Shown piece after piece: positions 1,935 to 14,766 of a stretch of 24,700 bases of DNA. Every line of letters begins with the position of its first letter. The first letter of the stretch is position 1. The notes under the pieces were generated by a model. That model was not told the DNA's origin, did no database searches, and saw only the letters and a program-made list of their open reading frames with translations. Source of the stretch: a virus. The stretch spans positions 1 through 24,700 of IMG/VR virus record IMGVR_UViG_3300012944_000058; one strand, 5' to 3'. The position numbers and the translations under genes are program-made.

Positions 1935-2189
1935 ATGATTCCTGAGCCGATCGAATTCACTGTCGACCACGACGGCAGCTATCACTTCGCCCATGAGTCG
2001 ATGCCGTTCAAGACGGTCATCGATATCCACAACCTGCCATTCCGCTGGGTGAAGCTCGACGAAAGCCGCGGACGCGTCACGATTGCGCTCGACGGCCGCA
2101 AGGTGATTTATGAGCGCACGGCGACCGGCCTGCACGGCGAGTGGATCTGCGTGCTGCGGATAGGAACTCTGGACGATGCGGAGGTCTGA
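1935..2189 (+). CDS. Hypothetical phage protein
   Basis: An 84-residue protein of unrecognised family, rich in beta-type segments and aromatic residues. I chose the ATG at 1935, which has GAAGGA at 1916-1921. An in-frame GTG at 1902 overlaps the terL stop as GTGA, a junction used repeatedly in this cluster, so a 95-residue form is also possible. Its 3' end overlaps the histidine phosphatase start by 14 nt, placing it in the same operon. No signal peptide or membrane segment is visible. Confidence 0.6.
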   Translation: MIPEPIEFTVDHDGSYHFAHESMPFKTVIDIHNLPFRWVKLDESRGRVTIALDGRKVIYERTATGLHGEWICVLRIGTLDDAEV

Positions 2190-3063
2190 TCGCACGATCT
2201 ACATCGTTCGCCACGGCGCGACCAAGTTCAATGCCGAAGCAGGCGTCTCAGTCGATCGCGAGCGCGGATGGAGTGATGTCCGTCTGACAGAAGAAGGGCG
2301 CCAGGAGGCCCGCAAGGCCGGCGCAGCATTGAAGAGCAAAGGCCTCACCGCTATCGTCTCCTCCGATCTGGAGCGCGCCAAAGAGACGGCTCAGATCATT
2401 GGCGGTATCATCGGCATCAAGCCTGAGTTCTCGTTCAAACTGCGGCCGTGGAATCTTGGTGATTTCACGGGCGAGGATCTGAAAGAGGCAAATCCGCAGA
2501 TTTGCGCGTATGCCAAGACGGCCGATAAGCCGGTTCCAGGCGGTGAAAGCTTCAACGCCTTCAAGATGCGCGCATTCCAGGGCGTTGACGAGGCGGTCAG
2601 GAAACATCCCGATCCGCTGCTGATCGTCTGCCATCATCGCGTCGAGCGGCTGATTGCTGGCTGGTGCAAAGCGGGTGAACCGGCGAGCCACGCAATCAAT
2701 CTGAATACGTTTTTGGAACAGGGCGATCCGCCGGGCGGGATCATTATCCTGCATACCAGTGAGGCGGCGCTCGGCGGCAAGGGCGGTGACAGTTCGGCCG
2801 GCAAGCTCTCTCACGCAACGGTGCATTTTGGTCATGCCAAGGGCAAGGACCGCTGCGGCAACTGCAAGGCGTTCATCGGGACGAACCAATGCAAGAAGGT
2901 CGTGCCGCCGATCGACGCCGACGACTGGTGTGCTGTCGGCGTGAGTAAGACAGACGGGCATAGGTTCGATCCGCGGGGCGAGGCTATCGAGGCCAAGGGT
3001 GGACTGATGCCGAAGCCTGAGAAATCCGACATGAAGCCTCGCCGATTTGGAGCGCTCGCGTAG
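2176..3063 (+). CDS. Histidine phosphatase superfamily protein with C-terminal Cys cluster
   Basis: Residues 1 to about 195 match the histidine phosphatase (phosphoglycerate mutase-like) superfamily: the catalytic RHG at 12-14, the SSDLERAKET helix with a conserved Arg near 67, PGGES at 121-125, and a second-His region CHH at 152-154. The family transfers phosphate through the first His; the substrate here is unknown. A separate C-terminal region has four cysteines (227, 230, 239, 252) ending in DWC, which could bind zinc or an iron-sulfur cluster. The protein ends in RRFGALA, a tag shared with two downstream genes. A metabolic-type enzyme inside a packaging operon is unusual. Confidence 0.82.
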   Translation: MRRSDRTIYIVRHGATKFNAEAGVSVDRERGWSDVRLTEEGRQEARKAGAALKSKGLTAIVSSDLERAKETAQIIGGIIGIKPEFSFKLRPWNLGDFTGEDLKEANPQICAYAKTADKPVPGGESFNAFKMRAFQGVDEAVRKHPDPLLIVCHHRVERLIAGWCKAGEPASHAINLNTFLEQGDPPGGIIILHTSEAALGGKGGDSSAGKLSHATVHFGHAKGKDRCGNCKAFIGTNQCKKVVPPIDADDWCAVGVSKTDGHRFDPRGEAIEAKGGLMPKPEKSDMKPRRFGALA

Positions 3064-6848: not shown

Positions 6849-7178
6849 ATGTCAGTAAAAGAATTGCCGTCTGCGAAAGAATTGTGGCAGACGTTCGATT
6901 ACGACCCGTTGACCGGTATGATTACATGGCGGAATGACCGCTTTAATATCTGCGGGCGCCTCATGGCGGAAGCAGGTTCAGAGGCTGGAAGCGTAAATGG
7001 CAACGGTCGAGGTGTCATCAGATTGAATCAACTTAATTATTACTCCCATCGCATAGCTTGGAAAATGGCGCTAGGAACCGAGCCGCCGGTTCTCATTGAT
7101 CACATTGACCGCAACCCGCTCAACAACGCCATTTCCAATCTTGCGGTGGCTGCCAGAATAAAGGAGAATATTAAGTGA
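6849..7178 (+). CDS. HNH endonuclease, free-standing (homing-type)
   Basis: A 109-residue protein with the layout of HNH_3-type homing endonucleases: YDPLTGMITWR at 18-28, SHRIAW at 66-71 with the first His at 67, and LIDHIDRNPLNN at 82-93 (catalytic-type D84-H85, then N93 and N97) followed by the usual ISNL. Members nick or cut DNA to spread themselves or nearby introns. The gene is more A/T-rich than its neighbours and breaks the chain of overlapping genes on its left, consistent with insertion. The C-terminus stops soon after the HNH core, so no long DNA-recognition tail follows. It could serve the capsid introns in trans, which is inference. Confidence 0.85.
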   Translation: MSVKELPSAKELWQTFDYDPLTGMITWRNDRFNICGRLMAEAGSEAGSVNGNGRGVIRLNQLNYYSHRIAWKMALGTEPPVLIDHIDRNPLNNAISNLAVAARIKENIK

Positions 7179-12522: not shown

Positions 12523-12590
12523 TTCTACACGCGCGTAGATACCGCAACTTCCGCGACGGCGGGAGATGCATTCATCCGATGCGCATCCCA

Positions 12591-12636
12591 GATGACGACC
12601 GCCAACAGAGTGAAAGCTTAGGCGGCGGTCGTCATC
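12591..12636 (+). repeat. 13-bp perfect inverted repeat
   Basis: GATGACGACCGCC (12591-12603) and its exact reverse complement (12624-12636) flank a 20-nt loop. It is followed by AAAAA rather than T, so it is not a standard + strand terminator. It may be an RNA structure or a protein-binding site in the capsid leader. Confidence 0.6.
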
Positions 12637-12818
12637 AAAAATGCAAATCGGAAATGACTGAGGCGGCGGACGGCCTCTAACTGTCCGGTCCCGATTGCAG
12701 CGTTCGGCTAATCGCTGCCTGGAAGGCCACCAGCAAAATGGCAGTTCGGCACAGCCCCGGGAAATTGGCTAGTCCGGCTCGACGGAATTCGGGCATCGCC
12801 CTGAATGTCAACCAAACT

Positions 12819-12822
12819 GGAG
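12819..12822 (+). promoter_or_regulatory. Ribosome binding site that selects the capsid TTG start
   Basis: GGAG lies 9 nt before TTG 12832 but 15 nt before ATG 12838. Spacing therefore favours TTG as the capsid start, giving an N-terminus MAMTNFGT. A TAA in the same frame at 12823-12825 excludes any earlier start. Confidence 0.55.
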
Positions 12823-12831
12823 TAATCCAAA

Positions 12832-14766
12832 TTGGCAATGACGAATTTTGGGACTGAAAGTTAGTCCCTTACACGGGAACTGGTTCTATATCGAACCGTG
12901 TAAGCAAACGGCGTGAATTCAGAAGAAGCCCAGACCGGGCCATCCTGAGCGAAGCCCGCGCAAGCGGGACCGTGCAACGACTATCCCGAAAGGGAGTACG
13001 GCCAAGCGGCCGGAAGCGCGCCGGACCCTAACCAGCAGGGTTATGAGATAGTCTCGTCTCGCGTATTGAAGCGCGAGCAGCCGAAAGGCGGTCTTGGTCT
13101 AGCGAGCCAAGGTGAAGATTCAGTAACGATGCCTTAGCTGTAAAGCTTTGGAGTAAGTCCCTGGATGTCGAAGCCCTCAAGTATACCGACATCTTTCCTC
13201 TGATCGGCTCTGATGCCAACAGCATCATCCATCGCAAAGAGGAAACCAGCAAGGGAGCCGGCGATAAGGTCACCTATGGGCTGCGCATGCAGCTTACGGG
13301 CGCCGGCTTCACCGAGAACCAGCTCGCGGAAGGCAATGGTGAATCACTGACGATCTATTCTGATTCGGTTATTATAAACGAGTTGGGTCACGTCGTCGGC
13401 GTGAAGTCGCAGAACACCATCGATCAGCAGCGCGTGCCGTTCAACCTCCGGGAAGAAGCACGCGACGGGTTGGCCGACTGGTATGCGAAGCGGTTTAATT
13501 GATGGACCGCTCTAAACCGGGTGAATTCGGTGGACCTCTGCGAAAGCAGACAATACCGAGCCAAGCCTGTGAGGTGGGCTTGGACCAATGAGGAGCCCGA
13601 TAAAAAGGGCGTTGAGTTATTGGTTCGATACCCCACTTGGCAGGAAGGTGTAGAGACTAGGCGAAAGCCGTAGGGCCAAGCGGCCCGAAGCGCCCGGCCC
13701 CTCGTGAGAGGGTGATAAGATAGTCCTCTCTGCCGTGTGAGCGGCAGCAGCTCGCAAGAGCGGTCTTGGTCTAGCGATCCAAGGCGAAAATCAGGTTCAA
13801 CGGCCTTCTTCACACAGGTTTGCGGCTACACGCCTCAGACCGACATCCGGTTCTCGGGCCTTCAGGCAGTCCCGGCAACCACCCGCATCATCCGTCAGTC
13901 TTCCCGTACGGACGATGCGTCTCTGACCTCTGCCGATGTGTTCTCTCTCCAGCTCATCGACAAAGCGAAAGAGGCGGCCATCACGGCCACGCCGAAGATC
14001 CGGCCCATCCGAGTCACATCGAAGGCGGGACCGGGCGGTGGGCGGCGTGACTACAACGCCACGCTGACCGACAAGTTCGTCCAGTATTTGCACCCTTTTC
14101 AGGTAACTGACCTGAGACAAAGCACAAGTACAGGACAGTGGTTGGACATCTCGAAGGCGGCGATGACTGGCGGCGAGATCACCAACAATCCTTTGTACAC
14201 GGGCGCCATCGGAGAATATAACGGCGTAATACTTCGTTCTTCTTTCGACGTGACGAACGGAGTAAGTAATACTGGCGTTCCGGTAACGAACGTCTTCCGT
14301 TCTGTCCTCCTTGGAGGCCAGGCGGCAATGATGGCTTTTGGTCAGAAGGATTCCCCCGGCAAGTACCGGTGGAATGAAGAGTCAACTGGCTCCGTCGCGT
14401 CGCGAGGCGCGAATGATAACCGCGTGAATTCGGTGGATCCCCTCGCTGCATAAGCAGGGCAATACCGAGCGAAGCCCGCTCAAGCGGGAACGCGTAACGA
14501 CCATCCCTTCGGGGAGTAGGGCCAAGCGGCCCGAAGCGCGCGGCGCCCCATGTGGGCGATGATATGGCCTCCTCTCACGACGAAAGCGTGAGCTGCCCGC
14601 AAGGGCGGTCGCAGTCTAGCGAGCTGCGGCGAAGATCAAGGTGTTTGACCACAAGCGACGTCTCGAAGTGTCCGCATGGACGATCCATGGGATGAAGCGA
14701 GTCCAATTCAACGCCCAGGATTACGGCACGATCGCTGTTTCCACTTGGGCCGCGGCTCACACGTAA
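12832..14766 (+). CDS. Major capsid protein, N4 gp56-like, split by three group I introns
   Basis: Joined exons 12832-12854, 13124-13495, 13796-14382 and 14642-14766 total 1107 nt and encode 368 residues. Junctions fall in codon 8 (AC/T), codon 132 (TT/T) and codon 328 (T/TG). The spliced protein reads MAMTNFGT-NDALAVKLWSK, then GAGDKVTYGLRMQLTGAG, GESLTIYSDS, STAFFTQVCGYTPQTD and the C-terminal VSAWTIHGMKR and FNAQDYGTIAVSTWA. These are hallmarks of N4 gp56-type capsid proteins, which form the HK97-fold shell. No part of the family pattern appears to be missing, so this is an intact spliced gene rather than a frameshifted pseudogene. Unspliced RNA would stop at TAG 12862-12864. Start is TTG 12832 or ATG 12838. 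Confidence 0.9.
12855..13123 (+). ncRNA. Group I intron 1 of the capsid gene (IA-like, no ORF)
   Basis: 269 nt. P1 pairs exon GGGAC (12850-12854) with guide GTCCC (12864-12868), and P10 pairs GTTA (12860-12863) with exon TAAC (13124-13127). P2 can form between CTTACACGG and CCGTGTAAG. P3 is GGCGTG (12910-12915) with CGCGCC (13017-13022), P4 is UCAG with CUGA, P6 has a GCAA tetraloop, and P7 is GACTAT (12979-12984) with ATAGTC (13048-13053). Two hairpins lie between the P7 5' strand and the P3 3' strand, as in subgroup IA. P8 is ACCCT/AGGGT and P9-region hairpins follow. The intron ends in G. The splice-site pair is C-G instead of the usual U-G; the boundary could move by one T without changing the protein. 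Confidence 0.9.
13496..13795 (+). ncRNA. Group I intron 2 of the capsid gene (IA-like, no ORF)
   Basis: 300 nt. P1 is seven pairs: exon AGCGGTT (13489-13495) with guide GACCGCT (13505-13511), ending in the canonical U-G pair at the splice site. P3 is CCGGGTG (13517-13523) with CGCCCGG (13691-13697). P4 is TCGGTG (13527-13532) with TACCGA (13554-13559). P5 is TCTGC-GAAA-GCAGA. P7 is GACTA (13655-13659) with TAGTC (13721-13725). P8 is CCCTC-GTGA-GAGGG. P6 is expanded to about 85 nt with nested stems (CCAAT/ATTGG, GCCC/GGGC), accounting for the greater length. The intron ends in GG before exon TTCAACG. An in-frame stop (13500-13502) lies in the P1 loop. Confidence 0.9.
14383..14641 (+). ncRNA. 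Group I intron 3 of the capsid gene (IA-like, no ORF)
   Basis: 259 nt, the smallest of the three. P1 is GAGT (14379-14382) with GCTC (14389-14392), with a U-G pair at the splice site. P3 is CCGCGTG (14420-14426) with CGCGCGG (14537-14543). P4 is TCGGTG (14430-14435) with TACCGA (14463-14468). P6 is CCCGC/GCGGG. P7 is GACCAT (14499-14504) with ATGGCC (14564-14569), with one A-C mismatch next to the guanosine-binding pair. P7.1-type hairpin has a TTCG loop, P8 is CGCCC/GGGCG, and three P9-region hairpins precede the terminal G. The first in-frame stop is late, at 14451-14453. Confidence 0.9.

Follow-up and report, generated by a model that had tools for sequence, protein, structure and literature searches.

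Three predicted self-splicing group I introns in the major capsid gene of an environmental phage

An interrupted capsid gene

The window analyzed here is an IMG/VR virus record, a single 24.7-kb metagenomic fragment without an isolate or a host. Its genes run in the order terminase, P22-like portal, a 393-residue open reading frame in the scaffold position and then the capsid gene, and the 393-residue product is a putative scaffold protein as judged from gene order only. A histidine phosphatase gene (2176-3063; PF00300, 1e-32) lies in the packaging region between terminase and portal and is an unusual passenger there. The capsid gene is preceded by ~300 non-coding bases (12523-12831) that fold far better than shuffled sequences (z -4.2) and contain a long hairpin that includes a perfect 13-bp arm (GATGACGACCGCC ... 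GGCGGTCGTCATC), a candidate regulatory or processing site.

The capsid frame at ~12.8-14.8 kb is open in fragments only and is lost three times. A first-pass annotation of the sequence had ascribed each loss to a group I intron of 259-300 nt, and the frame breaks, coordinates and structure that it described hold (Table 1). Reading on from the exons into introns 1, 2 and 3 meets a stop at 12862, 13500 and 14451 respectively, and removal of the three segments yields 368 codons, from TTG at 12832 to TAA at 14764-14766. Sixteen intron-less relatives place the start codon two codons before the ATG at 12838, and the homologues begin with ATG GC. AT. at the position equivalent to the TTG of the window; a GGAG at ~12820, read from the sequence, fits a ribosome-binding site.

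Table 1. Coordinates of the capsid gene exons and introns, and of a freestanding endonuclease gene, in the window
Feature	Position	Strand	Description
HNH_3 endonuclease ORF (phrog_99), freestanding	6849-7178		Between structural genes, 5.6 kb before capsid gene
Exon 1, major capsid gene	12832-12854	+	23 nt; TTG start at 12832; ends ...UUUUGGGAC
Intron 1	12855-13123	+	269 nt, ORF-less; P1 GGGAC/GUCCC, P10 UAAC/GUUA; ends in G
Exon 2	13124-13495	+	372 nt, 124 codons' worth; matches homologues
Intron 2	13496-13795	+	300 nt, ORF-less; P1 GCGGUU/GACCGC, P10 UCAA/UUGA; extended P6a hairpin; ends in G
Exon 3	13796-14382	+	587 nt; matches homologues
Intron 3	14383-14641	+	259 nt, ORF-less; P1 GAGU/GCUC, P10 GUU/AAC; ends in G
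Exon 4 with stop TAA	14642-14766	+	125 nt; matches homologues

The predicted spliced product matches PF13252 over 361 residues (E 7e-87; 292 bits, cut-off 23), PHROG 334 (major head) and the solved phage capsid 8h89 (E 1e-36). It also scores 78 bits against TIGR04387, the N4-gp56 family, above the cut-off of 60, and its junctions match the relatives exactly, in agreement with the earlier proposal of one 368-codon N4 gp56-like frame. Amino acid identity to intron-less relatives reaches 90%. In a comparison of the spliced frame with relative L003 (90% amino acid and 78% nucleotide identity), 174 of the 245 nucleotide differences fall at third positions, with dN 0.09, dS 1.6 and dN/dS ~0.06, all of which argues for a working capsid gene; the spliced frame is under purifying selection. 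The threefold loss of the open frame could also mark a decayed pseudogene with insertions, the capsid protein being encoded elsewhere in the genome, and the record, as a fragment, leaves room for a second capsid gene outside it. Such decay is nonetheless very improbable given this dN/dS, exons with neither frameshift nor stop, and insertions that lie at exact codon-neutral junctions and each comprise a complete ribozyme core.

Predicted splice sites and ribozyme structure

The coding sequences of 16 aligned intron-less relatives run unbroken through all three junctions, so that the homologues represent empty sites with nothing at the positions of the introns, coding or otherwise. These relatives support the splice sites of the first-pass annotation overall, with a correction at intron 3, which ends at 14641: its junction is set as GAG U^UG UUU, encoding E-E-L-F, and the alternative GAG^GUG (EEVF) is ruled out because the relatives read EELF. 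Intron 1 can be placed in two ways that differ by one base (GGGAC^U or GGGACU^) and give the same mRNA. With the junctions fixed in this manner, introns 1, 2 and 3 terminate in AUUCAG, AUCAGG and UCAAGG respectively, each with the terminal G. The 5' splice sites of introns 2 and 3 have the usual U.G, whereas intron 1 has C-G (or U-A) there and, with it, a perfect P10. The P1 and P10 pairings in Table 1 were read from the sequence, and the P1 hairpins are also predicted local folds.

A focused search with the Rfam model Intron_gpI (RF00028) matches all three introns on the + strand, at 12824-13076 (49.3 bits, E 7.3e-11), 13486-13747 (54.2 bits, E 2.4e-12) and 14382-14592 (31.6 bits, E 1.5e-5), each match spanning the whole model; the Rfam gathering score of 50 bits is reached by one of the three, intron 1 being narrowly below. 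A whole-window Rfam search at default gathering scores gave no Intron_gpI match, and an own-genome Rfam search matched introns 1 and 2. No further introns of the same family were found elsewhere in the 24.7-kb window.

For structure we used an alignment, made by sequence, of 48 ORF-less introns comprising the three in the window and others from viral contigs. RNAalifold returns P3, P4, P5, P6, P6a, P7.1, P7.2, P8, P9 and two further 3' hairpins, and once the P7 pseudoknot is included 97.8% of 2,616 cells (48 introns, 55 pairs) are paired, with changes on both sides in 43 of the 55 pairs. Sliding the partners leaves 33-43% paired (43% for a one-base slide), a control that is somewhat generous because the structure derives from the same alignment, although the margin is very large; none of 500 shuffles reaches the observed level. 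The P7 pseudoknot covaries (U-A/C-G and C-G/U-A), as do the P7.1 and P7.2 hairpins between the P7 5' strand and the P3 3' strand. Individually, introns 1, 2 and 3 fold better than shuffled sequences with z scores of -3.4, -5.6 and -2.4, and intron 2 carries a 70-nt hairpin extension at P6a. An intein or programmed bypass is ruled out by the in-frame stops and the ribozyme cores.

Hairpins P7.1 and P7.2 in this position are the mark of subgroup IA, and their presence points to a probable IA assignment that does not separate IA1, IA2 and IA3. An IC3-like assignment was set aside on account of these two hairpins. IA2 introns make up over half of the viral group I introns in a recent database (PMC11835236).

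We regard it as very likely that the three segments are self-splicing IA group I introns whose removal would give one capsid mRNA, and that they are homing elements now without an endonuclease. Following transcription of the capsid operon each intron would fold into its P3-P9 core, and its internal guide would pair in P1 with the last bases of the exon before it and in P10 with the first bases of the exon after it. Attack by a guanosine at the 5' splice site would free the upstream exon, which would in turn attack just after the terminal G of the intron and be joined to the next exon; three such reactions, if efficient, would produce the single 368-codon message. Several splice forms are conceivable if a 5' site pairs with a later 3' site, so that exon 2 is left out, a situation known from Twort orf142 and phage SIOphi. 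Exon skipping is documented in multi-intron phage genes (PMC11878797), introns 1 and 2 share a core, and the length of exon 2 would keep the frame; we think it unlikely here, as 124 residues of the conserved capsid fold would be lost and the P1 and P10 of each intron fit its own exons.

Occupied sites and probable intron history

The same sites are occupied in other phages: site 1 in L021, L067, L129 and L231, site 2 in L024, L074, L359 and L366, and site 3 in L024 and L245, with an intron near site 3 in L025. All four site-1 introns have HNH-like sequence just upstream of the core, before P3. L024 (IMGVR_UViG_3300037755_000850) resembles the window in having group I introns at sites 2 and 3 of a homologous capsid gene, but its site 1 is empty and its site-2 intron has an HNH-like ORF in the P6a loop, exactly where window intron 2 has its 70-nt extension. 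In L025 (8464-8934) a pair of introns near capsid residues 325-332 is arranged nearly head to tail, separated by a very short exon. Elsewhere along this type of capsid gene, introns occur near residues 12 (L116), 30 (L246), 75-80 (L041, L130), 103 (L125) and 268 (L053, L359). The residue-30 example, MW202512.1 (Podoviridae sp. ctDrO704), has like the window a PF13252 capsid gene split by an intron of the same family, although this is a single, endonuclease-bearing intron; in the deposit the capsid CDS is short and starts late, and the remainder appears as separate ORFs including an 'icea protein'. As judged by span, 80 of the 80 best capsid matches are uninterrupted, which is not an occupancy rate because interrupted relatives rank lower by construction.

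These empty and occupied sites, with the RF00028 matches to all three segments and the covariation across 48 introns, bear out the earlier assignment to group I. An assembly or chimera artefact of a metagenomic contig, to which a single 24.7-kb fragment might be prone, has a negligible chance of being the explanation, given that the three introns differ from each other (63-70% pairwise identity) and flank correct exons, and that other contigs, assembled separately, also have introns at these sites.

Presence and absence at identical sites among related phages, a mark of homing, is seen. Since the sites are occupied elsewhere, often by HNH-bearing introns, the introns of the window resemble homing introns whose endonuclease was lost or never present. 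As the first-pass annotation stated, all three are ORF-less; no ORF fits inside 259-300 nt, and no homing endonuclease ORF of their own was found inside them. The endonuclease may have been lost or may act from elsewhere. The freestanding HNH ORF of the window may be a mobilizer in trans, although it is only ~32-36% identical to HNH ORFs of some other intron loci.

In a tree based on intron sequence alone, window introns 1 and 3 group with an intron of L030 (support 0.95), apart from intron 2, and a separate clade (0.94) unites the four HNH-bearing site-1 introns to the exclusion of window intron 1. The alignment is short and the branch order therefore tentative, but the tree suggests that the capsid gene of the window was invaded on at least two separate occasions and that different intron lineages have repeatedly entered site 1. 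Recent tandem copying of one intron is ruled out by the 63-70% identity and by the different clade of intron 2.

Capsid genes as intron hosts and comparison with known systems

Viral contigs were scanned, regardless of gene, with a signature of 20 bases (GGCCAAGCGGCCSGAAGCGC; P7.2 and the start of P3'). Nearly all of the matches listed are introns of the same family, and rough duplicate removal leaves at least 81 distinct loci among them. A major-capsid exon adjoins the intron (within 150 bases, or by PHROG match of the adjoining exon) in 56 of these 81 listed loci, covering seven sequence families, some of which share the HK97 fold: P22-like (18), PF13252 (16), Phage_capsid_2 (9), SU10 type (6), PHROG 1357 (5), PHROG 9953 (1) and PHROG 267 (1). 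The other hosts among the matches listed are tail sheath (6-7), tail tube (1), DNA polymerase (2) and ribonucleotide reductase (2) genes, and the remaining loci are unassigned or not adjacent. IMG/VR picks contigs by hallmark genes, which favors capsid genes; terminase and portal genes, also hallmarks, are absent among the assigned hosts of the matches listed. In contigs of at least 30 kb, 10 of 15 distinct loci among the matches listed are in capsid genes by hand count.

An independent signature from P4/P6 gives 83 distinct loci, and capsid families again lead in Pfam matches of 81 adjoining pieces: SU10 (8), Gp10A-like (8), Phage_capsid_4 (5), Phage_capsid_2 (4), Mu gpT-like (4) and P22 (1), with DNA polymerase (3) and terminase (3) among the rest, counts in which one protein may match more than one family. 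The capsid share is lower in this broader set than with the first signature. In sequenced isolates, the host of a related intron, where named, is usually a DNA polymerase or terminase gene (among the matches listed), and Blast of intron 2 against phage isolates finds weak and mostly unannotated relatives in enterobacterial and Acinetobacter phages. Of 22 pattern matches in bacterial genomes, 10 are not introns. P22-type capsid genes with introns of the same family are present in Phenylobacterium and other alphaproteobacterial assemblies (L228, L229, L233, L238, L239), which are probably prophage or phage contigs. Multi-intron capsid genes are found in L086 and L109 (three matches each with capsid exons between), L036 (three matches before the capsid exon), L028, L030 and L359.

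We favor, with some reservation, the view that these elements represent a broad IA intron family that resides chiefly in the major capsid gene, and less often in the tail sheath gene, of many unrelated phages, with fixed sites reused and introns stacked, the window being a well-preserved example. If so, capsid genes would be a main intron niche in environmental phages, and one overlooked because gene callers report fragments; splitting alone would explain why many environmental phages have no annotated capsid gene, and the most abundant phage mRNA would have to self-splice up to three times. The HNH genes of capsid introns could then work against phages that co-infect the cell, an effect demonstrated for an RNA-polymerase intron (PMC11620839).

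The introns might instead be kept as regulators, with splicing as an on-switch that senses GTP or growth state and delays or tunes capsid synthesis. The idea has been raised for phage introns (PMC11878797 discusses it), a delay could matter in a late gene such as the capsid gene, and introns of the family favor capsid and sheath genes among the matches listed. We give regulation only an outside chance over neutral parasitism; the closest relatives have no introns, the best 80 matches being uninterrupted by span, and the HNH genes at occupied sites point to homing instead.

In published surveys the main hosts of phage group I introns are genes for DNA polymerase, terminase and ribonucleotide reductase, and PMC11878797 asks why introns colonize only genes of nucleotide and DNA metabolism. 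Neither a capsid niche nor three introns in one capsid gene was found in the open-access literature that was searched. An intron in a capsid gene and three introns in one phage gene are already known (PMC3706429, PMC11878797), and other contigs have multi-intron capsid genes, so that three capsid introns, although present as described, are less striking than the first-pass annotation supposed. What is new, and unexpected, is the frequency of introns of this type in capsid genes (56 of 81 loci among the matches listed).

The nearest precedent is the Cluster J mycobacteriophage LittleE, in which an intron, most likely group I, interrupts the major capsid gene and splicing was demonstrated by RT-PCR and protein sequencing (PMC3706429); it is a single intron of ~820 nt with a LAGLIDADG-like ORF, whereas the window has three small ORF-less introns in a capsid gene of the N4-gp56 type. 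A lactococcal capsid-gene intron is cited in the same paper. Twort orf142, as cited in PMC11878797 (Landthaler and Shub 1999), likewise has three group I introns in one phage structural gene, but this is a tail tube gene of a Gram-positive phage and shows exon skipping. The Bastillevirinae have up to three group I introns per phage gene, mostly IA-like as in the window, but their hosts are the DNA polymerase, terminase and ribonucleotide reductase genes (PMC11878797).
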